From: a virus
Strand: one strand, 5' to 3'
Length of the DNA stretch: 64,000 nt
Virus record (IMG/VR): IMGVR_UViG_3300030390_002309
Location: 1 to 64,000 of that record
The notes under the pieces were generated by a model. The model searched no databases. It was not told where the DNA came from and was given only the letters and a program-made list of their open reading frames with translations. This document shows positions 7,709-59,237 of the stretch, piece by piece. The translations under genes were made by a program, and so were the position numbers. Each line of letters opens with the position of its first letter. Within the stretch, counting starts at the first letter, position 1.

Positions 7709-10700
7709 CTAACGGTTAAAATTAATTTCAGAGTATCCATTAACTTTTTTGATTTCAATCAATTTATCTACTATATCTCTCATAGCATCTATATGAGAAA
7801 TACACATTAAAAATCCAAATTGAGATTTTAAATAATCAAATAGTAAGAACATTGAATTTAAGTTATCAGAATCCAATACCCCAAATCCTTCATCAATTGC
7901 TAAGAAGTTTGGTCTTGGTAAATTTGATACATTAATTAAAGAAGTTCTAATAGCTAATGATGAAATAAACTTTTCCATTCCGCTAGTTAATTCTAATGGC
8001 CAATAATTATCATCATCGTATACAATATGTGCATTTATATTTTTGCCATCTGTATGTAATACAATTGTAAATTCAACAACTTGATTAAGTATGTTATTAA
8101 TTTCTGATTCTATTTGTGGTAATGCTTTTGTTATTAAGTGATATGGCACCCCATCTCTATTAACAGCTTTCTGATAATATTCATATCCAGAATATTGTTG
8201 TTCTAATTCTTTTAACCTGTCTATACCTCCCTGAGCATCGCTCTTTGTCTTTTCTGCCATTTTTAGTTTGCCAGATAATTGTAACAAATTAGAATCTAAT
8301 TGCCCTAATTCTGTGTTTACAGTTGTTATCTCATCTCGAACTTCGGTTATTTCAGAATTTTTATTAATATTATATACTAAATTATCTTTTTGTTTTTGAG
8401 ACTTACTTAACTCTTTTCTTTTATCCTTAAGGTTATTTTGAATCGATTCTATTTCCCATTTAGTACTTTGTAAACCATGTTCCATTGTTACTAATGATTT
8501 TTCGTACCCCGTTAATAATGTTTCTAATGCATTTACAGCATCTAATTTTTCTTTTGGTTTATCTTGATGTTTAATTTTAACAATATTATCTTCAAAATGT
8601 TTAATGTCAAATTCTATAGCTTGTTCTTCATCAATTAATTTAGGTAAAAGGTCTGCAACTTCTTTGGTTTCTTTTAACCATGGATTAGCCATACAAAAAC
8701 TACAATCTTCGTCCCATTCATGTTTATCTAATTTAGATACCATTTTTTGGGCATGTTGAATTTTTAGTTGTTTCATTTTTAGATCGTTATTTAATTTAAT
8801 AACATTATCTTTATAGTCTTTTAATTTAACAATTAAATTTTCTAATTGTGCCTTATCAATTTTATTTATCTTTTGATTTGTCTCTTTAATTAATTTATTT
8901 TGACTTTTAATTAATTCTTTTTGTTGATCTCTATTTAATCTTGCATTTCCTACATCATCATTTAATTTAGTAATTTTATATTTAATATCATCTGGATCAT
9001 CTAATGTTTCGTCAACCTTTTTTAGTTCTTTGGTCATATTAAAAATAATATCATTAAGATTTGTCTTCATTTCTTCATGTTCTACCTTATCTAATTTCAT
9101 TTGTTCATATGATCCAGTATATTGAGTAATTACGTCATTTGCTCCTGATAAGTCGGTCGAGAAATCTTTTCTTTTATACTCTCTAATTAATGCAGCAGTT
9201 TCTCTAATATCTTCATGCCCGATACTATATAACTGTTCAAATATATCAATATCTAAAAATTGTGATAATAACTCTTTTCTTTCTCTCTGACTTTTGTCGA
9301 TAAACCCAGTATTGTTATTTTGTAATGATAATGCAGTTAATACAAAATCATCATACGTGCCTAAATATTGCTGTATTATTTTATTTGTAGAATCTCGTTG
9401 GTCGCCATTTAAGTTTTCTTCGTTACCAGAAGAATCAATTCTCCAAAAATTAACATTTACTTTAACATGTCCATTTCCGTGCTTTTTAGCCTTACGTTCA
9501 ATAAAGTAAGTATACTTGCCTAACTCAAATTCGAACTTACATTGGAAGTTAGATTTTTTATTATTCAATACATGTTTAGCTTTTTTAGTTCGACTACATT
9601 TATCAAAACACGCGAATGACAATGCATCTAACAACGTTGATTTACCAGATGCATTAGGAGCAAATAATCCATATAACCCATGCATATTTGTAAAATCAAT
9701 AACATTATTTGGTCCATAACTAAACATATTTGAAAATTCAAATTTCTTAGGCAACCATGTAATATTTCTAGTTAATGTACTTGTAGGCAATTTACTGTGT
9801 ACTGTCCTATTAATATGTCTTATCGTATCTAACAATGTATCATCTAATGCATATTCATCTGATAAATATTCTGTGATAACTTTGTTTTGCCATTCTACAT
9901 CTCGTATGTTTCCAAAATTAATTTTCTTTTTTGAATCGGTTGTATTTAATGCATTTATTTTTTGTATTGATATATCTTGTACTTTATATTCAGATTTTAT
10001 TTTTGCTACAATCTCTTTTAATGTAGCTGAATCTGTATCTTTTACTTTTAATCTCAACCTAGGTCGTATTGGAATTTTATCACTTGGGTTTGTAATCTTA
10101 CCATTATCAATTTGATAAGTGTAATATCCATAATCATTTGGTATGTCAATAAATTCACATTTCTTAGTATCTAGATCCCATACCATAATTCCATGTCCTA
10201 AGGCCTCCCCATGATTTTGTTGTATCAATGAGCCAGCATATGCAATTGTTTTATCATCATTTAAAAATTGTGGTTTATGTATATCACCTAACAATACTAA
10301 ATCATGTCCTTCAAATATTTTTGTGGTAACGTGTGTATTGCTAAGTACGAATCCCGCATCTGTAGAAGCATTATGTACCGACCCATGATGTAATGCTATC
10401 TTATAATCTCCCTCAAAACTATCAGCTCTTACATAATCAATTGGTTTATCGAACACCGATAATACGTTAAAGTGTATTCCTGATATATAATATATACCAT
10501 TGTCTTTAAGATAGTGTAGGCTTGGATGATTTAAGGCTTTAACGATCGGACTTAGGGCGTCCAGTCTATAACTATTATTTAAGTTACAGTCATGATTACC
10601 AGTTATTATTAATGTAGGTGCTAAATCTGCTAATTTTTTAAAGAATTCAGATACAACTGCTATTAATTCTGGTGACATATCTGTCTTTGCATGTACGATA

Positions 10701-10870
10701 TCACCGGCTACATATATTACAGAATTATCTGTTTTTGTCTTTTTTATATAAGAATATAATCTTTTAAATACTAATCGATATTCTTTATGTCGTTTAACAT
10801 TTCTAACATGTACATCTGCTATATGATAGATTTTATCTATCTTTTCAATTCCAATATCTATAGTGCGCAT
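7709..10870 (-). CDS. Fused Mre11-Rad50 (gp47-gp46 / SbcD-SbcC-like) recombination nuclease
   Basis: One 1053-residue chain joins both subunits of the Mre11-Rad50 complex. The N-terminal ~350 residues carry the calcineurin-like phosphoesterase motifs: HIADVHVRN, AGDIVHAK, TGNHDCN, LHHGSVHN and LLGDIHKPQ. The remainder is an SMC-type ABC ATPase. Its Walker A is APNASGKST near residue 407, followed by long coiled coils. A zinc-hook CxxC (CSFC) lies near residue 723, a signature-like LTSGMEK near 961 and a Walker B FLAIDEG near 993. In T4 the same functions are two genes, 47 and 46, which process DNA ends for recombination-dependent replication and host DNA breakdown. The start overlaps the primase gene by 13 nt, so the two are co-translated. 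The join shows no frameshift, so the fusion looks genuine. Confidence 0.93.
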   Translation of the reverse strand: MRTIDIGIEKIDKIYHIADVHVRNVKRHKEYRLVFKRLYSYIKKTKTDNSVIYVAGDIVHAKTDMSPELIAVVSEFFKKLADLAPTLIITGNHDCNLNNSYRLDALSPIVKALNHPSLHYLKDNGIYYISGIHFNVLSVFDKPIDYVRADSFEGDYKIALHHGSVHNASTDAGFVLSNTHVTTKIFEGHDLVLLGDIHKPQFLNDDKTIAYAGSLIQQNHGEALGHGIMVWDLDTKKCEFIDIPNDYGYYTYQIDNGKITNPSDKIPIRPRLRLKVKDTDSATLKEIVAKIKSEYKVQDISIQKINALNTTDSKKKINFGNIRDVEWQNKVITEYLSDEYALDDTLLDTIRHINRTVHSKLPTSTLTRNITWLPKKFEFSNMFSYGPNNVIDFTNMHGLYGLFAPNASGKSTLLDALSFACFDKCSRTKKAKHVLNNKKSNFQCKFEFELGKYTYFIERKAKKHGNGHVKVNVNFWRIDSSGNEENLNGDQRDSTNKIIQQYLGTYDDFVLTALSLQNNNTGFIDKSQRERKELLSQFLDIDIFEQLYSIGHEDIRETAALIREYKRKDFSTDLSGANDVITQYTGSYEQMKLDKVEHEEMKTNLNDIIFNMTKELKKVDETLDDPDDIKYKITKLNDDVGNARLNRDQQKELIKSQNKLIKETNQKINKIDKAQLENLIVKLKDYKDNVIKLNNDLKMKQLKIQHAQKMVSKLDKHEWDEDCSFCMANPWLKETKEVADLLPKLIDEEQAIEFDIKHFEDNIVKIKHQDKPKEKLDAVNALETLLTGYEKSLVTMEHGLQSTKWEIESIQNNLKDKRKELSKSQKQKDNLVYNINKNSEITEVRDEITTVNTELGQLDSNLLQLSGKLKMAEKTKSDAQGGIDRLKELEQQYSGYEYYQKAVNRDGVPYHLITKALPQIESEINNILNQVVEFTIVLHTDGKNINAHIVYDDDNYWPLELTSGMEKFISSLAIRTSLINVSNLPRPNFLAIDEGFGVLDSDNLNSMFLLFDYLKSQFGFLMCISHIDAMRDIVDKLIEIKKVNGYSEINFNR

Positions 10871-39744: not shown

Positions 39745-39790
39745 TTATATATAAAGATAAGAAATATATTTCAATTAGGCAAATCTTTTA
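39745..39790 (-). promoter_or_regulatory. Class A promoter, 135-aa gene
   Basis: The minus strand reads GATTTGCCTAATTGAAATAT, ATTTC, then TATCTTTA at 39752-39759 and TATATAAATAAAAAAG. TTTG to TATCTTTA is 20 nt, as expected for Bacteroidota -33/-7 elements. Confidence 0.7.
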
Positions 39791-42021: not shown

Positions 42022-42040
42022 ATTTTTTACTTTTTATTTA

Positions 42041-42096
42041 TATAATAAAGATAAGAAATATATTTCAATTAGGCAAATTATTTTGAAGCTTTTTTC
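42041..42096 (-). promoter_or_regulatory. Class A promoter, 63-aa membrane protein gene
   Basis: The minus strand reads GCTTCAAAATAATTTGCC, TAATTGAAATATATTTC, TATCTTTA at 42046-42053, then TTATATAAATAAAAAG. The upstream A-tract also encodes the last codons and stop of the preceding gene. Confidence 0.7.
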
Positions 42097-42708: not shown

Positions 42709-43587
42709 TTAGTTTTGATCGTATTCATCAATTTCGGCCATTATTGATGAAAATTGTTTTCTTAATGATTCATGTTCCATTTGAAGTTTTTCAAGTACTG
42801 CACCATATCTATCTGTAGTAGGTCCTCCTTCTGGACTAGCTTCTTGCTCCATATCTTTTTGTGTTTGAATAATCTCTTTAGTCTTTTGTAGCATTTCCAT
42901 TTCAATGTCCATTGCTTCATTTCGTTTATTCATTATCCAATCATATGCTTCAAATGGTGTTTTAAAGTTAGGTAGTGCTTCATTTACCTCACCACCTTTG
43001 GCAACATGTTTATCTAGTAGATGTTTCAATGTTATAGTGAATTCGGTATCATCATTTGCTTCTACTTCTTTAAGTTCAAGTTCTGCATCTGCATGAAGAC
43101 CACTAATTTTATCTTCATATGCTTTATATGTTGAATTAGCTAATTCAGAAGCAGATCTTTTCTTCTTACTCAAATCAGCAGCAATCTTAGTATGTTTTGC
43201 AATTGCCTTTTCATTACCACTTGCTTTAGCTGATTTATATTTTTCTAAGTTAACTAATAATAAGGAAGATAATGCTTGTTCCTTTTTAACAGCTTTATCA
43301 TAATCAGACTTTAATGATCTAGCACTTTTTGCTTCCCTCATTTGTTCTGGATCAGAAAATCCTTCATCAGGTAGTTCAGCTTCAATAAGAGATTTAATCT
43401 CTTCTTCTACCATTTCTTTAATCTTATTAACAAGACCTTTATGTTTTGTTGATGCCATTTTATCTACTTCTTTTTTAGTCATATCATCTGCAACTTCTCC
43501 GGCTTCACCTTTTTTAGGTATATCACCTTTTTGCATAGCTTTCACTACACCAAAGAACTTTTGCTGTTGTTTACTTTTGGATGGCAT
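42709..43587 (-). CDS. DUF3008-like N-terminus plus coiled-coil protein
   Basis: The N-terminal ~55 residues (SKQQQKFFGVVKAMQKGD, then MTKKEVDKMASTKHKGL) match the DUF3008-type motif often found in phage virion proteins. A charged amphipathic segment (LVNKIKEMVEEEIKSLIEAE) and long coiled coils follow. The start at 43587 (MPSKSK) shares TAATG with the stop of the upstream gene and is preferred over an ATG 9 nt earlier. It is likely an internal head or neck-associated protein, produced together with its neighbour. Confidence 0.6.
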   Translation of the reverse strand: MPSKSKQQQKFFGVVKAMQKGDIPKKGEAGEVADDMTKKEVDKMASTKHKGLVNKIKEMVEEEIKSLIEAELPDEGFSDPEQMREAKSARSLKSDYDKAVKKEQALSSLLLVNLEKYKSAKASGNEKAIAKHTKIAADLSKKKRSASELANSTYKAYEDKISGLHADAELELKEVEANDDTEFTITLKHLLDKHVAKGGEVNEALPNFKTPFEAYDWIMNKRNEAMDIEMEMLQKTKEIIQTQKDMEQEASPEGGPTTDRYGAVLEKLQMEHESLRKQFSSIMAEIDEYDQN

Positions 43588-44579
43588 TAATACCAACCAT
43601 CTAATTTACCAGATTTGAATTTGTTCAATATAACTTTAATATCACCTGCCTTCTGTTTCATTCTGTCTTCACTATATTTTTTACTATATTGATCATCTTC
43701 TTGCTTTTCAGCTTCATTTTGCAATTGGATATATTCACCATAATAATATAATGCCTTACTCATTCCTTTAGTAACATTTTCTAATTCAACTTCATTACCA
43801 TTAACAGTTGCCATTATCTGACTATATCTACCTAGTTTAGGTAATCCCATTGACTCTGCAACAACCTTATTAGATATTTGAACTATTTTAGCAACCATTG
43901 CATCTACCTGATCTCTACCACCTACTCTTGCATTTAGTATTTCTTTATATCTAGATAGGTTTGCTGCTTTCCATGCCTTAGCATCTTTGAAAGTATCTTT
44001 ACCTAATTTCAAATCAGCTCTTTTAGCTTTCAATGCTGAAGTTCCTCCTCTATAAGAATCTAAATCAAATACATATACTACATCAGCAAGTTCTCTTAAC
44101 TTCTTAACCATCATAGTACCAAAAGCACCTTTTCCAATTGGATCTGCTGAACCTTTATAGGATGAAGTAGCTGTCTTACTTCCTACACCACCTTGACGGC
44201 CATGGTATTGAATTTTATTATCAACGGTAACAGCTAATACTGCAGGACCTCTTAATGTTCTATCATATGCCCATCCTTTGCTACTTGCAAATGGATTAGC
44301 TATATCTTGATTAATAACATAGAATGCCATTCCTTTTTTAACATCTGGAGAAGTTGGTTGAACTTTACGGAAACTACCTTTTGGTAATTTATCCCAAGCA
44401 ATGTCATATGTTTTAGCAGCTGCATCCCAAAACTTTCTATAGTTAGTATTTAATGATCCTCTACCTAGCTTATCTAGTTTAGCAATCAATGGATCACCAA
44501 ATGCTTCATTAATTGAAGAAGCACGAAGTTCTTTGATCAACTCTTCTTTAATGATTCTTCTTATGTCTGATTTTTTCAT
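43587..44579 (-). CDS. Putative internal virion protein with INE-terminated leader
   Basis: This 330-residue protein starts MKKSDIRRIIKEELIKELRA then SSINE, a leader like a T4 capsid-targeting peptide ending in a possible I-N-E cleavage site. The body contains GRQGGVGSKTATSSYKGS, VVYVFDLDSYRGGTSALKAK and many Lys/Arg residues. No enzymatic family is recognised, although the pattern of ordered strands would fit an enzyme-like domain delivered with the DNA. It is the first gene leftwards from the divergent region, with a GAGGAA ribosome binding site and a class B box. Confidence 0.5.
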   Translation of the reverse strand: MKKSDIRRIIKEELIKELRASSINEAFGDPLIAKLDKLGRGSLNTNYRKFWDAAAKTYDIAWDKLPKGSFRKVQPTSPDVKKGMAFYVINQDIANPFASSKGWAYDRTLRGPAVLAVTVDNKIQYHGRQGGVGSKTATSSYKGSADPIGKGAFGTMMVKKLRELADVVYVFDLDSYRGGTSALKAKRADLKLGKDTFKDAKAWKAANLSRYKEILNARVGGRDQVDAMVAKIVQISNKVVAESMGLPKLGRYSQIMATVNGNEVELENVTKGMSKALYYYGEYIQLQNEAEKQEDDQYSKKYSEDRMKQKAGDIKVILNKFKSGKLDGWY

Positions 44580-44718: not shown

Positions 44719-44780
44719 AAAAAAAGCTTGCCAATAATTAGGTTATATGAGATTAATTTCTTATCTTTATATATAATAAA
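44719..44780 (+). promoter_or_regulatory. Class A promoter on the plus strand
   Basis: This is the only plus-strand copy: AAAAAAGCTTGCCAATAATT, AGGTTATATGAGATTAATTTC, then TATCTTTA at 44762-44769 and TATATAATAAAAAGG. It drives the three plus-strand genes. Its conserved orientation relative to genes confirms that the motif is a directional promoter. Confidence 0.75.
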
Positions 44781-44792
44781 AAGGTAGAAATT

Positions 44793-44981
44793 ATGAGCAA
44801 ATTATTAGATGAAATAATTAAAGAAAGTGAAAGGTTGAAGGCCTTAGGTTGGAAGCCTCAATTTAGAGGAGATACCGGAATCAATATTGCCCAAGTTATG
44901 ATTGATAACAATATCAAAGCAAGGAACCAATGGGATGCCGCTTTTATGGAAACCTTCCAAGAAATTAAAAATAACAAATAA
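44793..44981 (+). CDS. Small helical protein (62 aa), first gene of plus-strand operon
   Basis: This is a 62-residue helical protein (LLDEIIKESERLKALGWKPQ, NQWDAAFMETFQEIKNN). It lies 10 nt after the class A leader and begins the only rightward operon of the window, followed by two coupled genes. Function is unknown. Confidence 0.65.
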   Translation: MSKLLDEIIKESERLKALGWKPQFRGDTGINIAQVMIDNNIKARNQWDAAFMETFQEIKNNK

Positions 44982-44986
44982 CAGAT

Positions 44987-45124
44987 ATGAAAATAATTGA
45001 AAGATTCAAATGTGAAATGACCGGAGATCATTGTGTTGTAATACGTGATAAGGACGGTGATGAAATGTGTATGTTGGTAGAAGATTACAACTTCTTTTAT
45101 AGTCCAACCAAACCATTAGTATAA
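44987..45124 (+). CDS. Small hypothetical protein (45 aa)
   Basis: This is a complete 45-codon gene between two longer genes. It starts MKIIERFKCEMTGDHCVVI and ends FFYSPTKPLV, with three cysteines. Its stop overlaps the next start as TAATG, which supports real translation. No family is recognised. Confidence 0.65.
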   Translation: MKIIERFKCEMTGDHCVVIRDKDGDEMCMLVEDYNFFYSPTKPLV

Positions 45125-45510
45125 TGAGTAAAGTATTAGTTAGTGAATTTGCAGTTGCCGGAAAAGAGGTGCAAAGAACATATGCAATACATGGCGGATT
45201 GATTCCGCCCTTTACAATGACATGTAACGGAGAACGTTATATTATGCCCGGATGGTATAAGCTAAAAGCGAATGAAGCTACACCAGATATAAAGGATATT
45301 GCTTATTATCCATATAAGCCTAAAAAAGCTAATATACCTAATTTACCTAATATAAAGAGCAATAAGGTATATAAGGTAAAGAGCTCTAAAGGTAATAGCT
45401 TTTATGAAGTTCAATTGAACACCTCTGGATCATTGGAATGTTCATGCCCAGGTTATGGGTTTAGGCGTAAGTGCCGTCATGTAACCGAATTAATGCAAAC
45501 ATCTATTTAA
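45124..45510 (+). CDS. SWIM zinc-finger protein
   Basis: This 128-residue protein ends in a SWIM-type zinc finger, C-x-C ... C-x-H, visible as LECSCPGYGFRRKCRHV. The upstream part has short beta strands and a Pro/Lys/Asn linker (KPKKANIPNLPNIKSNK). SWIM fingers bind DNA or protein partners, for instance in recombination mediators and helicases. As part of an early plus-strand operon beside a possible origin, it could act in replication, recombination or host take-over. Confidence 0.7.
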   Translation: MSKVLVSEFAVAGKEVQRTYAIHGGLIPPFTMTCNGERYIMPGWYKLKANEATPDIKDIAYYPYKPKKANIPNLPNIKSNKVYKVKSSKGNSFYEVQLNTSGSLECSCPGYGFRRKCRHVTELMQTSI

Positions 45511-45579
45511 TGCCCTCTCCCCTTATTATAGCATGCAGTATCGAATAGAATGTCTTTTATAATATATATAATGAAAAAA

Positions 45580-45714
45580 ATGTTTACGTTAGGTTAAACA
45601 TAGCTTTGTTATGATTCAATAGCATGCTTACCAGCATGGAGGCGCAGCCTCTATCCACCGAATACCATCTATATAGCAAAAAAGCTATGAACGCGATAAA
45701 AATATATATATCGC
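45580..45714 (+). ncRNA. Candidate structured RNA: five consecutive hairpins
   Basis: Just downstream of the SWIM gene are five short hairpins in 135 nt: ATGTTTA/TAAACAT (45580-45601), CATGCT-TACC-AGCATG (45623-45638), GAGGC-GCA-GCCTC directly abutting it (45639-45651), ATAGC/GCTAT with an A6 loop (45673-45688), and GCGATA/TATCGC (45693-45714). No reading frame of size is present on either strand. The second and third stems can stack coaxially. It may be an RNA co-transcribed from the class A promoter or a DNA structure at an origin. No known RNA family is recognised. Confidence 0.4.
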
Positions 45715-45875
45715 CCCCCAGAGCACCAAGATCACCTGGTATGTTAAGGATAACCGGTATATGCCCCTATATATGGTGGTTTTAGGGCTATATAGGGCTT
45801 TATAGGGTGATATGGTGGTATTAGCCCCAGTATGGGTGCAGTACGGTCTGGTATGAATAGGTATGACCTGCTTCC

Positions 45876-45931
45876 CTCTATATAGTATATGCTCTCTTTA
45901 TATATGATTGCTCTCTATATATAGTATGCTC
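45876..45931 (+). repeat. Direct repeat pair CTCTATATA-GTAT-GCTC
   Basis: CTCTATATAGTATATGCTC at 45876-45894 and CTCTATATATAGTATGCTC at 45913-45931 are nearly the same 19-mer, spaced 37 bp apart. A partial inverted form lies at about 46095-46113. Confidence 0.4.
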
Positions 45932-46107
45932 ATCATCTCTATCTCTTGCTACTGCATATTCTTCTAACAGCTTCCGGACACTTACGACAGTACTTGATAG
46001 ATAGTGCGATAGACCAGGAACCACCCTAGCCTATCTGAGATATGATATATACTACTAGCCGGTATATAAGCGGTCTACATCTTTATATAAAGATCTCTCT
46101 ATATATA

Positions 46108-46425
46108 CTATAGTTCTTCTTCTCCAAAGAATGCTGGATGACCATTATATGCTAATTGGTCTTCTATACTTGCCAACATATACTTTGCTCTTTGCTTAAA
46201 GAAGCCTACAAACAAACTATGGTTCTCACTCGCCTTAGGATATATAGTCTCGGTATGCTCACATTCACCATAGGTAGCATCATTATACTTACCTACCAAT
46301 ATATTACATCTATACTCTGAATCATACTTAGTACTTACTACAACTTTACCAGGAACTATACTATCTAACATCACTTGGGCTACTTTTACTACTTGGTTGA
46401 TTGGGTCTATTTGGTTTTTTATCAT
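46108..46425 (-). CDS. Hypothetical protein (105 aa)
   Basis: This is a 105-residue protein. A helical N-terminus (INQVVKVAQVMLDSIVPG) is followed by strands (KVVVSTKYDSEYRCNILVGK) and a helical tail (FFKQRAKYMLASIEDQL). It has its own class A-type promoter and A-rich leader. It stands alone between two long non-coding stretches. No family is known. Confidence 0.5.
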   Translation of the reverse strand: MIKNQIDPINQVVKVAQVMLDSIVPGKVVVSTKYDSEYRCNILVGKYNDATYGECEHTETIYPKASENHSLFVGFFKQRAKYMLASIEDQLAYNGHPAFFGEEEL

Positions 46426-46449
46426 ATCTTTATTTTTTATTTCTTTTAA

Positions 46450-46495
46450 TTATACTATAAATATAAGGACTTTTTTTCAATTAGGCAAATGATCT
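46450..46495 (-). promoter_or_regulatory. Class A promoter variant, 105-aa gene
   Basis: The minus strand reads ATTTGCCTAATTGAAAAAAA, GTCCT, then TATATTTA at 46458-46465 and TAGTATAATTAAAAG. The -33 part is conserved and the -7 box has A for C. Confidence 0.6.
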
Positions 46496-46590
46496 AACAG
46501 CTTTATTCCGGAAATAAACAAAAAAAAGCTAACAATTTATTAGGAATTACGAAGAATAGTTTGCACCACGTCTAACGATCTCTATACAAA

Positions 46591-46637
46591 ATCCTATATA
46601 TAATGGCCTATACATTGAGATCTCTTATATAAAGGAT
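46591..46637. repeat. Long inverted repeat in non-coding region
   Basis: ATCCTATATATAA and TTATATAAAGGAT form 13-nt arms with one mismatch and a 21-nt spacer containing GAGATCTC. It is a possible protein-binding palindrome or cruciform near the strand switch. Confidence 0.45.
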
Positions 46638-46952
46638 AGCAAGCAAGCCTTAATGCAGTTTAAAATGTTATGTAATTTTTTTTCTATAGGAAATATTTGG
46701 AAGAACGACATATATTTATATACATTTTCTGGAGATCATCCTATACATAGACTCTGATAAGGCCTATCAATCTATCCTATGCGTATAGTACAATCTATTA
46801 TATAGGATTAATTGTTTTAAAGGTTCAATTACACTATCGATATATGGTAAAGGTTCTGTTATCACCATACTTTGATAGGTCATTACATGTTCGGATAACA
46901 TGGTGTACTAGGGTCTTTGACCCTCTGTATAGATCCATATACCAGAGTCCAT

Positions 46953-47036
46953 TTAATCCTTATCCTGTAATGCAATATAAGCCAATATTGCTAATGCAAT
47001 GGATAAGCATAACCCTATATATGCTATAAATCCCAT
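46953..47036 (-). CDS. Membrane microprotein (27 aa)
   Basis: This short gene encodes MGFIAYIGLCLSIALAILAY then IALQDKD, one hydrophobic helix with an acidic/basic tail. AGAGGTAG before the ATG is a good ribosome binding site. It begins a leftward run of membrane-protein genes, with the next start 228 nt upstream. Its size and topology are like those of small phage proteins that modulate host membrane proteins. Confidence 0.55.
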   Translation of the reverse strand: MGFIAYIGLCLSIALAILAYIALQDKD

Positions 47037-47075
47037 ACACTACCTCTTCGCTTCTTGGCTATATAGCATCTTATT

Positions 47076-52448: not shown

Positions 52449-54554
52449 TTATATTAATTCTAAAAATTTCTTATTCATTGATTTTGCTACTTCATTAATC
52501 TTTTTGGTATTGATATATTGAGCTTCTTTGCCGTACATTGCATTGAATGCCTTTTCTTCAGTATCACTAATACCATATGACCCTGTAATAAAATAACTAA
52601 TTACTTTAATACCTTCTCTGGTCATCTTCTTTACTTGCTCTCTCGTATGTTTATGAGCACTTTCACCATAATAATCACCATAATAAGGCATTCCATCACT
52701 CATATTAACAAAATATGCATCTTTACCTTTTGATGCATCTAATACTTCTTTCATTATTGCATCAAAACATAATCCTTCTGGCGTCACTCCTGATACAATA
52801 CAATGAGGAAAATTAGTTTTAAGTTGACTTATACCATGCTTTCTACTATCATATGCAATTAATATCACTGGCATATCCTTTCCACTAAAATATGCTCCGG
52901 CTCTGAAACTAATAACACAATCCATATTCTCTATCATGCTACATGCTTTTGCAATTGCTACTGAGGTTGTAAATGCGTTATTAAATCTCTCTCCATTCAT
53001 TGAACCACTATTATCAATTGATATATGAATCATACCTGGATTATATGCAAATGATTCTACTTTTGCAAATATATTTTCTATACCAAATCCTGCACTTGAT
53101 ATTCTACGTTTATCAATCTTACCTGATCTTAATCTATTGAACTTAGTATCTTTCTGTTCTGCCCTTACCTTTAACTTCTTACCTAATACAATACCTCTTC
53201 TTAATCCTTCATTCACTAATTGACTATTTGCTTCTATTCTATGATCACCCCATGCTCCTTGAGTGGCCCACATATCACATTCAACATTGTTAATTAAATC
53301 TTTGGTAAAATTCTTAATAACAGCTACATCTTCATGTTTAGGAATAGAACCACCATCCCAATAATTTTCTCGCTGGTATTCAACTTTCTTAATTTCTGTA
53401 CCACTATCTTCCATCGATGAAATTGTCTTTTGTAACTTCTTACTTACACTGGTCTTCTTAATATCTTGGTTCTGAAATTCTTCTTGCTTCTTAATTGCTT
53501 TCTTAAGTTGATCTATTTGCCTTTGATTCAATTCTTCTAAATCATTTGGTGCCTTTACTCCTCCTAAATTTCTACCATCACCTTTCTTAGCCTCTTCGCC
53601 TTCTGCCTTTGAACCATCATCACTATCAACATCTCCTTCTGGTTTCTTTGCTTCTCCATTTCCATCAACTGGCTCTCCATCTTCTGCTCCACTACCTTCT
53701 CCATTACCTTCTCCTTCTCCTTCGTTTTTCTTATCTAATTCTAATGATGGTATTTGACTTTCAATAACCTTAAATACTTCATATGCTAAATCTCTAACTT
53801 CATTGGTATTCTTTAGTCTTGCAATATTCTTAAGATCGATCATCTTCCATATCTTATCTAATTCTAATACATCTAATCTACGATTTGGATTAGTTAAATT
53901 ACAAATACGGAATAAGAATGAATCCCAATCTGCACTTGTATACTCATCACTCTTAAGACCTTTATCAATAATCTTTGCATTGAAGAATTTTTCATACAAT
54001 GCTTGATAGTAACCTTTATACCCTGGTGCATTTTTATATACCCAAGCATCGATTCTTCTATCTTCTATAATATTAATAAGGCTACTTAACTTAGATATTA
54101 CATATTCTGGTGACCACCATTTGTCATATCCTTCTAAATCAGATGCTATTGCTCCATGCTTATCAGCTAATGATGACATATATTTATGATCATCAAATAA
54201 CCATGTATCTAAGTTTCTTAATGTATCAAAGTCGGTCAATTTAATATGCGATCCTTCATGTAATGCTAATCCAACGGCTGGATCAAAATCTTTATCTTTC
54301 AATGATGCTGATATAACAACTGACTTACCATCGGTATAACTATCACCACTTGTTTGAAACTTAACTGGAATGGATTCTCCTGTAACAATTCTAACAAAGT
54401 TACCTATTGCTCTACGGTAACCTGCTAACTTCATAGGGTCTTTACCTTTTGGCTTTGCAATTTCTTCTCCTAACATATCAAATTGATCATCATTAAAGAA
54501 GTCATTATCTAACCAAAAACTTGAATTGGAATCTGAATAACTGGTTTTTTTCAT
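52449..54554 (-). CDS. VWA-domain protein with HExxH motif (CobT-like partner of a MoxR/CobS AAA+)
   Basis: This is a 701-residue protein. Near residue 98, ALHEGSH provides a HExxH-type metal site within a metallopeptidase-like domain. A low-complexity acidic linker follows around residues 275-325 (EGEGNGEGSGAEDGEPVDG). The C-terminal domain from about residue 505 is a von Willebrand A fold with a MIDAS signature, ISIDNSGSMNGE, later a T and VNMSDGMPYYG. The order resembles CobT, the VWA partner of the AAA+ subunit CobS, and MoxR-linked VWA proteins. The cognate AAA+ gene lies 680 nt upstream. Such pairs act as chaperones or metal-insertion machines; here the client is unknown. It has its own class A promoter. 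Confidence 0.75.
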   Translation of the reverse strand: MKKTSYSDSNSSFWLDNDFFNDDQFDMLGEEIAKPKGKDPMKLAGYRRAIGNFVRIVTGESIPVKFQTSGDSYTDGKSVVISASLKDKDFDPAVGLALHEGSHIKLTDFDTLRNLDTWLFDDHKYMSSLADKHGAIASDLEGYDKWWSPEYVISKLSSLINIIEDRRIDAWVYKNAPGYKGYYQALYEKFFNAKIIDKGLKSDEYTSADWDSFLFRICNLTNPNRRLDVLELDKIWKMIDLKNIARLKNTNEVRDLAYEVFKVIESQIPSLELDKKNEGEGEGNGEGSGAEDGEPVDGNGEAKKPEGDVDSDDGSKAEGEEAKKGDGRNLGGVKAPNDLEELNQRQIDQLKKAIKKQEEFQNQDIKKTSVSKKLQKTISSMEDSGTEIKKVEYQRENYWDGGSIPKHEDVAVIKNFTKDLINNVECDMWATQGAWGDHRIEANSQLVNEGLRRGIVLGKKLKVRAEQKDTKFNRLRSGKIDKRRISSAGFGIENIFAKVESFAYNPGMIHISIDNSGSMNGERFNNAFTTSVAIAKACSMIENMDCVISFRAGAYFSGKDMPVILIAYDSRKHGISQLKTNFPHCIVSGVTPEGLCFDAIMKEVLDASKGKDAYFVNMSDGMPYYGDYYGESAHKHTREQVKKMTREGIKVISYFITGSYGISDTEEKAFNAMYGKEAQYINTKKINEVAKSMNKKFLELI

Positions 54555-55234: not shown

Positions 55235-56401
55235 TTATACATTTAATTCTTCTTCTTCTTCAACGCCTTCTGCATTAAAGATATCCTCATCTTCTATACT
55301 ACCACAATACTTTTGAACTACTTGCTTCATAAAGGTTCTTTCACTATCTACTCCTCCATCTTCATCAAAGAAAGGATAAATACAAACCTCTGCCGATTCA
55401 GCTAATGTAAATCCATCTTCTAACAATCCTGCCATCTCAACACTTAACCTTGTACTTATTGAATTTGTTATTCTAGGAGCATCACCTTTTATTTCTTTTC
55501 TAGTCATTGATGCTATCTCTGCAATATTATCAGCTTGCTCTTGAGTCACTCCTGGATGAAGATCTTTTAATAATCCTGACTCTTGTTCTTTATCTAATGT
55601 CTCCATTTCAACAATAATAAATCTATCAACTAATGCTCTATCCATTGCTCTGGTTGCGGTATATTCATTACCTATATTTGCAGTGGCTACAAATGTAACT
55701 CCTTCTGCTACCTTAATGGTCGGTGCATCTTGATGTTCATCTAATCTTAAATATCTTTGTCCGGCATCTAATACCGTCATCAATATGTTCCATGCTTCTG
55801 GATGTGCTCTTGATATCTCATCTAATAATATAATAGCATCTTTGGTCTGGATTGCTTTTACAAATAATGATTCACTAAACATTGTACCTTCTTCTTTCTT
55901 AAAATGGGTGTTGCCAATCAATGTCCCTCTTGGATCTTGAGTGGCACCTAAATTAAAATAGAATTCTGGTCTATCTAATGCTTCTACTAATCTCTTAGCG
56001 GCCATTGTCTTACCACAACCTGCTGCTCCGGTCATCATAATATTCTTACCTCTCATTGCTGATCGAACTAAATACTTCCATTTCAAATCAGGCATTACCA
56101 ATGTCTTAGGACGAAGGTCTATTGATTCATTATGGATAAAATTCAATATTGGATCTGCTTCTAATTGTTCTGCCATTTTTACTTCTTCTACTTTTGGTTT
56201 CATATCATTAAACAATGCCATATCCTTACGTCTTGATCTTCCGGTTTCCATATCATATTCTATACATTGATTATTCTCAACACAATGTGAACACATAATA
56301 TCTCTAACATATAAATCATTACGTACATTCCCTTTTGTATCTTTTAGGATGTACTTACCATTTTTTGCTTCAACGGTTAAATAGATTATTTTTTCTTTCA
56401 T
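55235..56401 (-). CDS. MoxR/CobS-like AAA+ ATPase
   Basis: This 388-residue AAA+ protein has Walker A GAAGCGKTMAAKRL near residue 124, Walker B AIILLDEISRAHPEAWN near 193, sensor-type FVATANIGNEYTATRAMDRA and the arginine-finger region LVDRFIIVEM. It is of the kind annotated as CobS in T4-like cyanophages. The N-terminus holds two CxxC-like Cys (MCSHCVENNQC). The nearby VWA/HExxH protein is its expected partner. The nature of the complex (chelatase, chaperone or protein remodelling) is not shown by sequence. It has its own class A promoter and an SD-less leader. Confidence 0.85.
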   Translation of the reverse strand: MKEKIIYLTVEAKNGKYILKDTKGNVRNDLYVRDIMCSHCVENNQCIEYDMETGRSRRKDMALFNDMKPKVEEVKMAEQLEADPILNFIHNESIDLRPKTLVMPDLKWKYLVRSAMRGKNIMMTGAAGCGKTMAAKRLVEALDRPEFYFNLGATQDPRGTLIGNTHFKKEEGTMFSESLFVKAIQTKDAIILLDEISRAHPEAWNILMTVLDAGQRYLRLDEHQDAPTIKVAEGVTFVATANIGNEYTATRAMDRALVDRFIIVEMETLDKEQESGLLKDLHPGVTQEQADNIAEIASMTRKEIKGDAPRITNSISTRLSVEMAGLLEDGFTLAESAEVCIYPFFDEDGGVDSERTFMKQVVQKYCGSIEDEDIFNAEGVEEEEELNV

Positions 56402-56439: not shown

Positions 56440-56498
56440 TTATATATAAAGATAAGAAAAAGATCTCATTTAGGCAAATCTTTTTCAAGCTTTTTTTA
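56440..56498 (-). promoter_or_regulatory. Class A promoter, MoxR/CobS-like gene
   Basis: The minus strand reads AAAAAAGCTTGAAAAAGATT, TGCCTAAATGAGATCTTTTTC, then TATCTTTA at 56447-56454 and TATATAAGAAAT. Its upstream A-tract contains the final codons and TGA of the 32-aa gene. Confidence 0.7.
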
Positions 56499-58022: not shown

Positions 58023-58331
58023 TTATCCTTTTAGTAATTCTTTTGAATCATCTACTAAGTTGCGACTATTATAAAATTTATCTCTAGCCTTTGCTCTCAT
58101 AGACTCAACATATGTTTTTTCGTCCTTAGATAATGAACTCCAAAATGATTCAAACTCTCCACCTGGAGTATTCATATATCTAGTATATGCATCTTCAGTT
58201 TTGTCATCATTCATATGCTTAGCTAAAACTGTACCTAAAATAGTTGATGCTTTAGGTTGAACTGATATTCCGTTCTTCCCCATTGCAGTATACCATTCGT
58301 CCATAATCTGTGTTACTTTGTCTTTACTCAT
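58023..58331 (-). CDS. Helical hypothetical protein (102 aa)
   Basis: This is a 102-residue helical protein (VTQIMDEWYTAMGKNGISVQ, TYVESMRAKARDKFYN). It starts just after the coding piece of the permuted tmRNA, with AAAAGGAATAAGTT before the ATG. It could be transcribed as read-through from the tmRNA promoter. No family is recognised. Confidence 0.5.
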   Translation of the reverse strand: MSKDKVTQIMDEWYTAMGKNGISVQPKASTILGTVLAKHMNDDKTEDAYTRYMNTPGGEFESFWSSLSKDEKTYVESMRAKARDKFYNSRNLVDDSKELLKG

Positions 58332-58359
58332 AACTTATTCCTTTTTTTTATTATTTCCT

Positions 58360-58660
58360 CTATATCCTCCGAAGCTTAAACGGCATGCTTCTTCAACCGT
58401 CGGTCTTGGGTGCTTAATTAAGCAGCCATCGCCATGTTAACATGTTCGCCTGTTATTGCGTTGATCTTCATTATATCCTTATCATCATGTCAAATACCTG
58501 TTCATCCCCATTTGTAGCCCGACGGAGAATCGAACTCCGGTTACATGGATGAAAACCATGCGTCCTAACCACTAGACGACCGGGCCAATTTCCTACTTAG
58601 TGGAGATGGTGGGAGTCGAACCCACGTCCATTAATGCAGCTAATATAACTACTAACGATC
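58360..58660 (-). ncRNA. ssrA: Circularly permuted (two-piece) tmRNA gene with tRNA-Glu in its intervening segment
   Basis: On the minus strand the acceptor piece comes first (58660-58601). It contains a T arm, GTGGG-TTCGACT-CCCAC (58625-58609), then CATCTCC and discriminator A. After an intervening segment holding tRNA-Glu, the coding piece begins GGGGATG (58509-58503) with an AACAGGTATTTGACA D-like region. GGGGATG pairs with CATCTCC over 7 bp, including G3-U70, the alanine identity pair. The tag frame runs 58459-58418: GCA resume codon, AITGEHVNMAMAA, then TAA. An H-type pseudoknot follows: ACGG/CCGT (58400-58397 with 58383-58380) interleaved with GAAGC/GCTTC (58391-58387 with 58375-58371). 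A P2 helix pairs GATC with GATC and TTATAT with ATATAA. It rescues stalled ribosomes and tags the product for proteolysis. Exact piece ends are inferred. Confidence 0.85.
58515..58586 (-). tRNA. tRNA-Glu (anticodon TTC), inside the permuted tmRNA gene
   Basis: A complete cloverleaf is visible. The acceptor is GGCCCGG/TCGGGCT, the anticodon arm CATGG-TTTTCAT-CCATG has TTC, the T arm is CGGAG-TTCGATT-CTCCG, and the discriminator is A, with no encoded CCA. It lies 14 nt after the tmRNA 3' end (58601) and 5 nt before the tmRNA 5' end (58509). Processing of the tRNA by RNase P and 3' nucleases would therefore also help release both tmRNA ends. Confidence 0.95.
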
Positions 58661-58664
58661 ATTT

Positions 58665-58672
58665 ATAAATAT
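58665..58672 (-). promoter_or_regulatory. Class B box, permuted tmRNA
   Basis: ATATTTAT immediately precedes the acceptor piece. A start 5-8 nt downstream would begin the RNA near the GATC of helix P2 (58660), which fits the expected 5' end of an acceptor piece and supports the minus-strand orientation of the class B signal. Confidence 0.5.
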
Positions 58673-58673
58673 G

Positions 58674-59237
58674 CTACTTCAATCGTATATACTTCTTACC
58701 ACCTTTAAAATATATTGTACCAATTGGTATTTCATCTGTCAATGCCTTTCCTAACATATCATATGCTATATCATTATACCATCTAATACCATCTTCTTCA
58801 ATTACAAATCCAGGAATTCCTGTAGGAGTATTTCTCAACATTACAACCCATGTAAATAAATTGAAATCATATACTACCGAGTCACAGTAATTACACATCA
58901 TTATTGTTGAATCTAATTGATATATAAAAGCATCATAACATAATTTAACTGTATCTGATATTTGTATTAATGGAAATGAGTATGGATTATTTCCTTGACC
59001 TACATAACATGCAACATCATTACATGCAGTGAAGCTCCAATCTATTGCACCTACCATATTACCTATACCACCTGAACTTGGAGTTACAGTTAATGTTGTA
59101 TTTGGAAATATTGAATATGATAAAGAGTCACACCAATTATTAGTTTGTGCCTGTGACCTTGTTGACCATAATGTCAATACTGCTAGCCAAAATATAGCTA
59201 CTATAAAATAGCCTTTGTTCTTGTTAATTTTTTTCAT
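58674..59237 (-). CDS. Secreted protein with type IX-sorting-like C-terminal tail
   Basis: This 187-residue protein has a signal sequence (NKGYFIVAIFWLAVLTLWST, cleavage near SQA-QTN) and a Cys-rich middle (CYVGQGNN, MMCNYCDS). Its last ~30 residues, AYDMLGKALTDEIPIGTIYF followed by KGGKKYIRLK, resemble the C-terminal sorting domain of Bacteroidota type IX secretion substrates: YD-LG---- --P-G-IYI--GKKY. If recognised, the host machinery would export the protein to the cell surface during infection. The function of the body is unknown. Confidence 0.65.
   Translation of the reverse strand: MKKINKNKGYFIVAIFWLAVLTLWSTRSQAQTNNWCDSLSYSIFPNTTLTVTPSSGGIGNMVGAIDWSFTACNDVACYVGQGNNPYSFPLIQISDTVKLCYDAFIYQLDSTIMMCNYCDSVVYDFNLFTWVVMLRNTPTGIPGFVIEEDGIRWYNDIAYDMLGKALTDEIPIGTIYFKGGKKYIRLK

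Follow-up and report, generated by a model that had tools for sequence, protein, structure and literature searches.

In bacteriophage T4, the replication origin oriE carries direct repeats (iterons) that are kept in the syntenic regions of relatives, and oriE, oriF and oriG all lie near transcription strand switches (PMC3016281). The T4 origins share no common sequence motif, and what the oriE repeats do is still poorly defined (PMC3016281). Here we describe a conserved non-coding element of about 400 letters, at roughly 45607-45985 of a 64,000-nt stretch of viral DNA (hereafter the window) that belongs to the 129,594-bp IMG/VR record IMGVR_UViG_3300030390_002309. Its likeliest role is that of a replication origin, or of an origin-like control region, in a T4-type phage, acting in cis as double-stranded DNA; we hold this assignment with a little less than even confidence.

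The locus resembles oriE in having direct repeats, here degenerate, in syntenic regions of relatives, small adjoining genes and, in the window and the relatives with the plus operon, a nearby strand switch, and the class A promoter of this phage would be a candidate counterpart of the early-type promoter on which oriE apparently depends. Unlike oriE with its evenly spaced 12-mers, it combines degenerate GGTATG and TATATA repeats with a core box and a conserved pair of hairpins. With the R-loop origins oriF and oriG (PMC3016281) it shares a promoter directed toward an AT-rich stretch and, in the window and four relatives, a strand switch. It differs from them in its strongly conserved boxes and in a promoter that stands some 850 bp away from the hairpins. 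Plasmid iteron origins likewise show direct repeats on one strand, an AT-rich block, a spacing of about 20 bp and a single copy per genome; unlike these origins, the element has no recognized initiator gene beside it, and its repeats are far more degenerate.

Pattern and profile searches located the element in six further viral contigs, L002, L003, L018, L052, L061 and L034, of which L003, L018 and L052 are closely related; the sample is thus seven genomes, the IMG/VR contigs being fragments. The initial annotation of the window had proposed five tandem hairpins at 45580-45714, and five perfect stems of 5-7 bp were recovered there, with neither their count nor their number of paired bases being reached in any of 1,000 dinucleotide-preserving shuffles (stems of at least 5 bp, loops of 3-10). 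The folding energy of these 135 nt was moderately unusual, with z-scores of -2.0 on the plus strand and -2.6 on the minus strand. The second and third stems, H1 (CATGCT-TACC-AGCATG, 45623-45638, a perfect 6-bp stem with a loop of 4) and H2 (GAGGC-GCA-GCCTC, 45639-45651, 5 bp with a loop of 3), meet exactly, as had been noted. Conservation and covariation in relatives were found for this abutting pair and not for the other three stems, which we rejected as conserved structure: the first hairpin (ATGTTTA...TAAACAT, 45580-45601, 7 bp, loop 8) is not part of the conserved block, whose start is near 45607; the stem of the hairpin over an A-run motif (ATAGC-AAAAAA-GCTAT, 45673-45688, 5 bp, loop 6) is not kept in relatives; and the last hairpin (GCGATA...TATCGC, 45693-45714, 6 bp, loop 10) is one pair shorter in L002 and not retained in the other genomes. 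Nor did the high GC content ascribed to the stems extend beyond H2 (GAGGC), for which alone it is clear, the 7-bp stem and both stems on the right being AT-rich or average.

In a hand-made alignment of the pair, H2 has three different stem sequences, and all five of its pairs are Watson-Crick in 7/7 genomes, each position showing two or three types of pair. The window and L002 read GAGGC-GCA-GCCTC, L061 reads GAGGC-ATAT-GCCTC, L034 reads GGCCT-ATT-AGGCC, and L003, L018 and L052 read TATAC-GCA-GTATA. H1 is a hairpin located 1-4 nt to the left of H2 in all seven genomes, again with differing stem sequences, and it is weak in L003 and L018, with 4 Watson-Crick pairs and 1 G-T pair. For the window, L002, L052, L061 and L034, no more than 0.8% of shuffles equalled the best tandem-pair score; L018 was marginal, with a different pair scoring best, and L003 gave no pair at the strict setting. 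Such paired changes, at a place that stays fixed, support conservation of the hairpins, and because pairing is kept despite the changed stems, the shape of the hairpins rather than their letters seems to be under selection, which is the strongest result of this analysis. When alignments were compared with column-shuffled versions, both strands gave a structure signal in the left half (z down to -5.8, and to -5.4 for the minus strand). The consensus fold was strong for H1/H2 only; it was weak across the full 7-way alignment and good in subsets, on both strands.

By these comparisons, the stems are the left end of a longer conserved block. In a BLAST search against related viral contigs, positions 45607-45980 were 79% identical to L002 and encoded no protein, and we consider it fairly safe that the region is a conserved cis-acting element. 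To the right of the hairpins, the A-run motif follows H2 by 23-28 nt in 7/7 genomes, and a CAGAGC box (45719-45724, plus strand) lies 12-13 nt ahead of GGTATGTTA in six of the seven. The core box CCTGGTATGTTAAGGATAACC (45735-45755, plus strand; consensus CMTGGTATGTTANNNWWAACC) is near-invariant, has one true copy per record in the 7 viral records, and begins 80-83 nt after the end of H2 in every genome. From it extend direct repeats of GGTATG with G-rich stretches (45735-45870, plus strand), which are strand-specific: over the seven elements, GGTATG occurs 19 times on the plus strand and 0 times on the minus strand, vs 0.9 expected. A further motif, CCCCTATATA, stands at 45764-45773 in the window and is present as a single copy in each of 4 of the 6 records searched. 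Next comes a TATATA array (45876-45931), in which blocks recur about 20 bp apart (spacings 19 and 37 in the window) with TGCTC between them. Over the seven genomes, 10 pairs of TATATA blocks fall at 18-22 bp vs 3.0 in shuffles (P 0.001, for a test chosen after the spacing had been inspected), with a further cluster at 38-42. Spacings of about 20 and 40 bp amount to roughly two and four turns of the helix, a pattern suggestive of double-stranded DNA. On the right-hand side lies a conserved box, TCTTCTAACAGCTTCCGGACACTT (45960-45983), kept in L002, L003, L018 and L052 and absent in L061 and L034.

The element occurs in a group of marine bacteriophages of the T4 type. In all of them it is non-coding, with one copy per record tested, and the neighboring genes are syntenic where tested. 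Matches to the core pattern outside the seven genomes, including those in L063 and L064, were attributed to chance, as they fall in coding DNA, and the bacterial and archaeal genomes searched gave no match to the element. An intergenic stretch of Microcystis phage Mel-JY01 (L065:3250-3600) has many C- and G-runs, CCCCTATATA and GGTAT, and is stylistically like the element of L034, although homology is not demonstrable.

The initial annotation had offered two alternatives, a non-coding RNA expressed from the class A promoter and an origin-associated DNA element; the second is favored here over a free-standing RNA. An origin would best explain most of the observations because the element is single-copy and non-coding, with one-strand repeats, a phased AT-rich block, hairpins, a promoter and a strand switch. 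Conservation, compensatory turnover of the hairpins, the fixed spacing, the repeats and the unique genome position were all observed directly; from them we infer strand opening, protein binding and origin activity at the element. The class A promoter would drive transcription of a small plus-strand operon toward the element, the AT-rich array phased at about 20 bp and the directional GGTATG and core boxes would bind an initiator or ease duplex opening, and the abutting hairpins might fold on an exposed strand, where they would flag or shield the loading site of a primase, a helicase or a transcript-derived primer. It is a more tentative proposal that this is a new type of origin, defined by a hairpin pair kept in shape, 80-83 nt to a 21-bp box, GGTATG on one strand, phased TATATA and a single copy per genome.

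Several observations weigh against assigning the element to an origin. At genome scale, GC skew keeps its sign across the element, and the element's repeats are short and degenerate relative to classical iterons. The strand switch is found in the window and in the relatives with the plus operon; L034 and L061 have flanking genes on the same strand, and there the plus operon and its promoter are absent beside the element, which stands directly upstream of a minus-strand gene. Since the operon is missing from these two genomes, the element is independent of the strand switch. The spacing test on the TATATA blocks was post hoc, and the H1/H2 pair table was aligned by hand, MAFFT having failed on such short sequences; the hand alignment leaves a choice of register, of which H2 is largely free of doubt and H1 in L003 and L018 is not. 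Finally, a structure signal on both strands does not distinguish DNA from RNA, nor does it single out one strand.

The main rival, which we regard as possible though rather doubtful, is that plus-strand transcription from the class A promoter yields a structured RNA, either non-coding or in the form of a long 3' untranslated region; H1 and H2 would then stabilize the RNA or bind a protein. The class A promoter is directed at the element in five genomes and the interval 45400-46500 is without a terminator-like site; the plus strand may therefore well be transcribed. The tandem hairpins still pair after sequence change, the left half of the alignment has its folding signal (z to -5.8), and the few G-T pairs of H1, in L018 and L003, pair on the plus strand only. 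Like the GOLLD and ROOL RNAs, the element is a long conserved non-coding stretch bearing hairpins; unlike them, it has no Rfam match at the gathering or a relaxed threshold and no extended fold conserved in all members. In the 7-way alignment, no consensus structure spans the element as a whole. L061 and L034 have neither the promoter nor the operon next to the element, and the phasing at about 20 bp and the one-strand repeats would not be expected of an RNA; these three features argue for a DNA element over an RNA made from the operon.

An unlikely explanation is that the element belongs to the left-hand gene, which encodes putative capsid-targeted proteins, as a leader or regulatory RNA on the minus strand or as an operator or promoter, the plus operon having been inserted later between the two. 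In L061 and L034 the element does lie immediately ahead of the next gene on the minus strand, folding is slightly more favorable on that strand (z to -5.4 in alignments), and perfect palindromes such as GAGGCATATGCCTC would fit dimeric DNA-binding proteins. In five genomes, however, the plus operon intervenes and places the element about 1 kb from that gene, and no leftward class A promoter through the element was found within the flank covered in L002, L003 and L018.

A terminator region halting convergent transcription of the plus operon and the minus-strand gene at 46108-46425 is improbable: the layout in the window is convergent and the hairpins lie downstream of the plus operon, but the stems have no U-tract, neither strand has a terminator-like site at 45400-46500, the element is retained in L061 and L034 despite co-directional flanking genes, and the fixed 80-83-nt spacing to the core box would be unneeded.

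Three identities were rejected. The stretch had been described as free of reading frames, and a 53-aa frame (45624-45785, plus strand) does cross it; this frame is not coding, as the changes between the window and L002 are spread 7/9/7 over the codon positions and stops interrupt it in L018, L003, L052, L061 and L034. An intrinsic terminator was discarded, with no terminator-like site on either strand of 45400-46500 and no U-tract after any stem. As for known Rfam RNAs, the window gave only a transfer RNA (tRNA) and a permuted transfer-messenger RNA (tmRNA), and a relaxed search of the region returned two chance-level matches. The permuted tmRNA lies at 58327-58692 on the minus strand (RF04321, 58.8 bits; tag GEHVNMAMAA), and a tRNA-Glu is called within the same stretch.

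By its sequence, the record is that of a T4-type myovirus, and a family search matched baseplate wedge and primase families in it; a large frame at 7709-10870 was judged by eye to encode an SbcC-like ATPase. In a mechanical call of open reading frames on pieces of the 129.6-kb record, the genes lie on the minus strand except for the small plus operon at 44793-45510, just left of the element, and no other operon on the plus strand was seen in the genome. Coding on the minus strand likewise prevails in the relatives G003 and G004, and in G004 no plus operon adjoins the element. GC skew is negative on both sides of the element, and its sole local reversal is over the plus operon. The element sits in a coding-free gap of 597 nt (45511-46107), the second largest in the pieces; the largest, of 650 nt (46426-47075), lies beyond the 105-aa minus-strand gene at 46108-46425 that separates the two gaps and faces the plus operon in a convergent layout. 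Within the 650-nt gap, a 33-nt non-coding stretch (46691-46723) is 97% identical to L002 and partly kept in L018.

The plus operon encodes proteins of 62, 45 and 128 aa. The 128-aa product is a SWIM-like zinc-finger protein; its match to SWIM (E 0.009) is under the Pfam cut-off, it is 56-73% identical in 3 relatives, and it would be a first candidate for a protein that binds the core box or single-stranded H1/H2. Its viral relatives were found with an alignment query, a single-sequence query finding none, and public phage records gave no match for the SWIM protein or for the DNA of the region. L003, L018 and L052 share a conserved block, AAAATTTNGTTTTGCACTTTTCGCTNGNGCTCAG, in the interval that separates the SWIM gene from the hairpins, and a similar block follows the SWIM gene of L054. 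The class A promoter reported at 44.7 kb is indeed present (44735-44776, plus strand) and reads toward the element; it scores 42.6 bits against a matrix for the phage's own promoter (ATTTGCC, 24 nt and TTATCTTTATATA) that was derived from 14 copies, this site included. The same promoter precedes the operon in L002, L003, L018 (L047) and L060. A second copy at 46492-46451 reads from the opposite side of the element. The repeated phage promoter, ATTTGCCTAAT, 24 nt and CTTATCTTTATATATAA, precedes many genes (39745-39786, 42039-42080, 46451-46492, 56440-56481 and others). Bacteroidota promoters have the form TTTG / TANNTTTG, and the likeness of the phage promoter to them suggests a Bacteroidota host. 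Farther to the left, the genes at 43587-44579 and 42709-43596, together with L061:4805-5443, have similar charged helices at or near their starts (MKKSDIRRIIKEELIKEL, MTITRAYIQQLVTEEL; by eye), which are perhaps capsid-targeting signals of packaged proteins.

Elsewhere in the window, a VWA-domain-like protein with a weak CobT_C match is encoded at 52449-54554 on the minus strand, near a frame for a MoxR-like AAA ATPase (55235-56401), and its relatives were found at 173 places in viral contigs. Among 80 of these phage loci with a VWA gene, no core box was found in the stretches covered, L152 (the L002 contig) excepted; L101 and L102, the closest VWA loci, end short of the expected place of the core box. 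Core matches with one mismatch in three VWA-bearing phages were in coding DNA and attributed to chance.

The element has a fixed geometry of hairpin pair, 80-83 nt, core box and phased array that would be dissectable part by part. If it acts as RNA instead, it would be a new phage RNA absent from Rfam. As a single-copy signature, it could be used to predict origin-like sites in uncultured marine T4-type phages.
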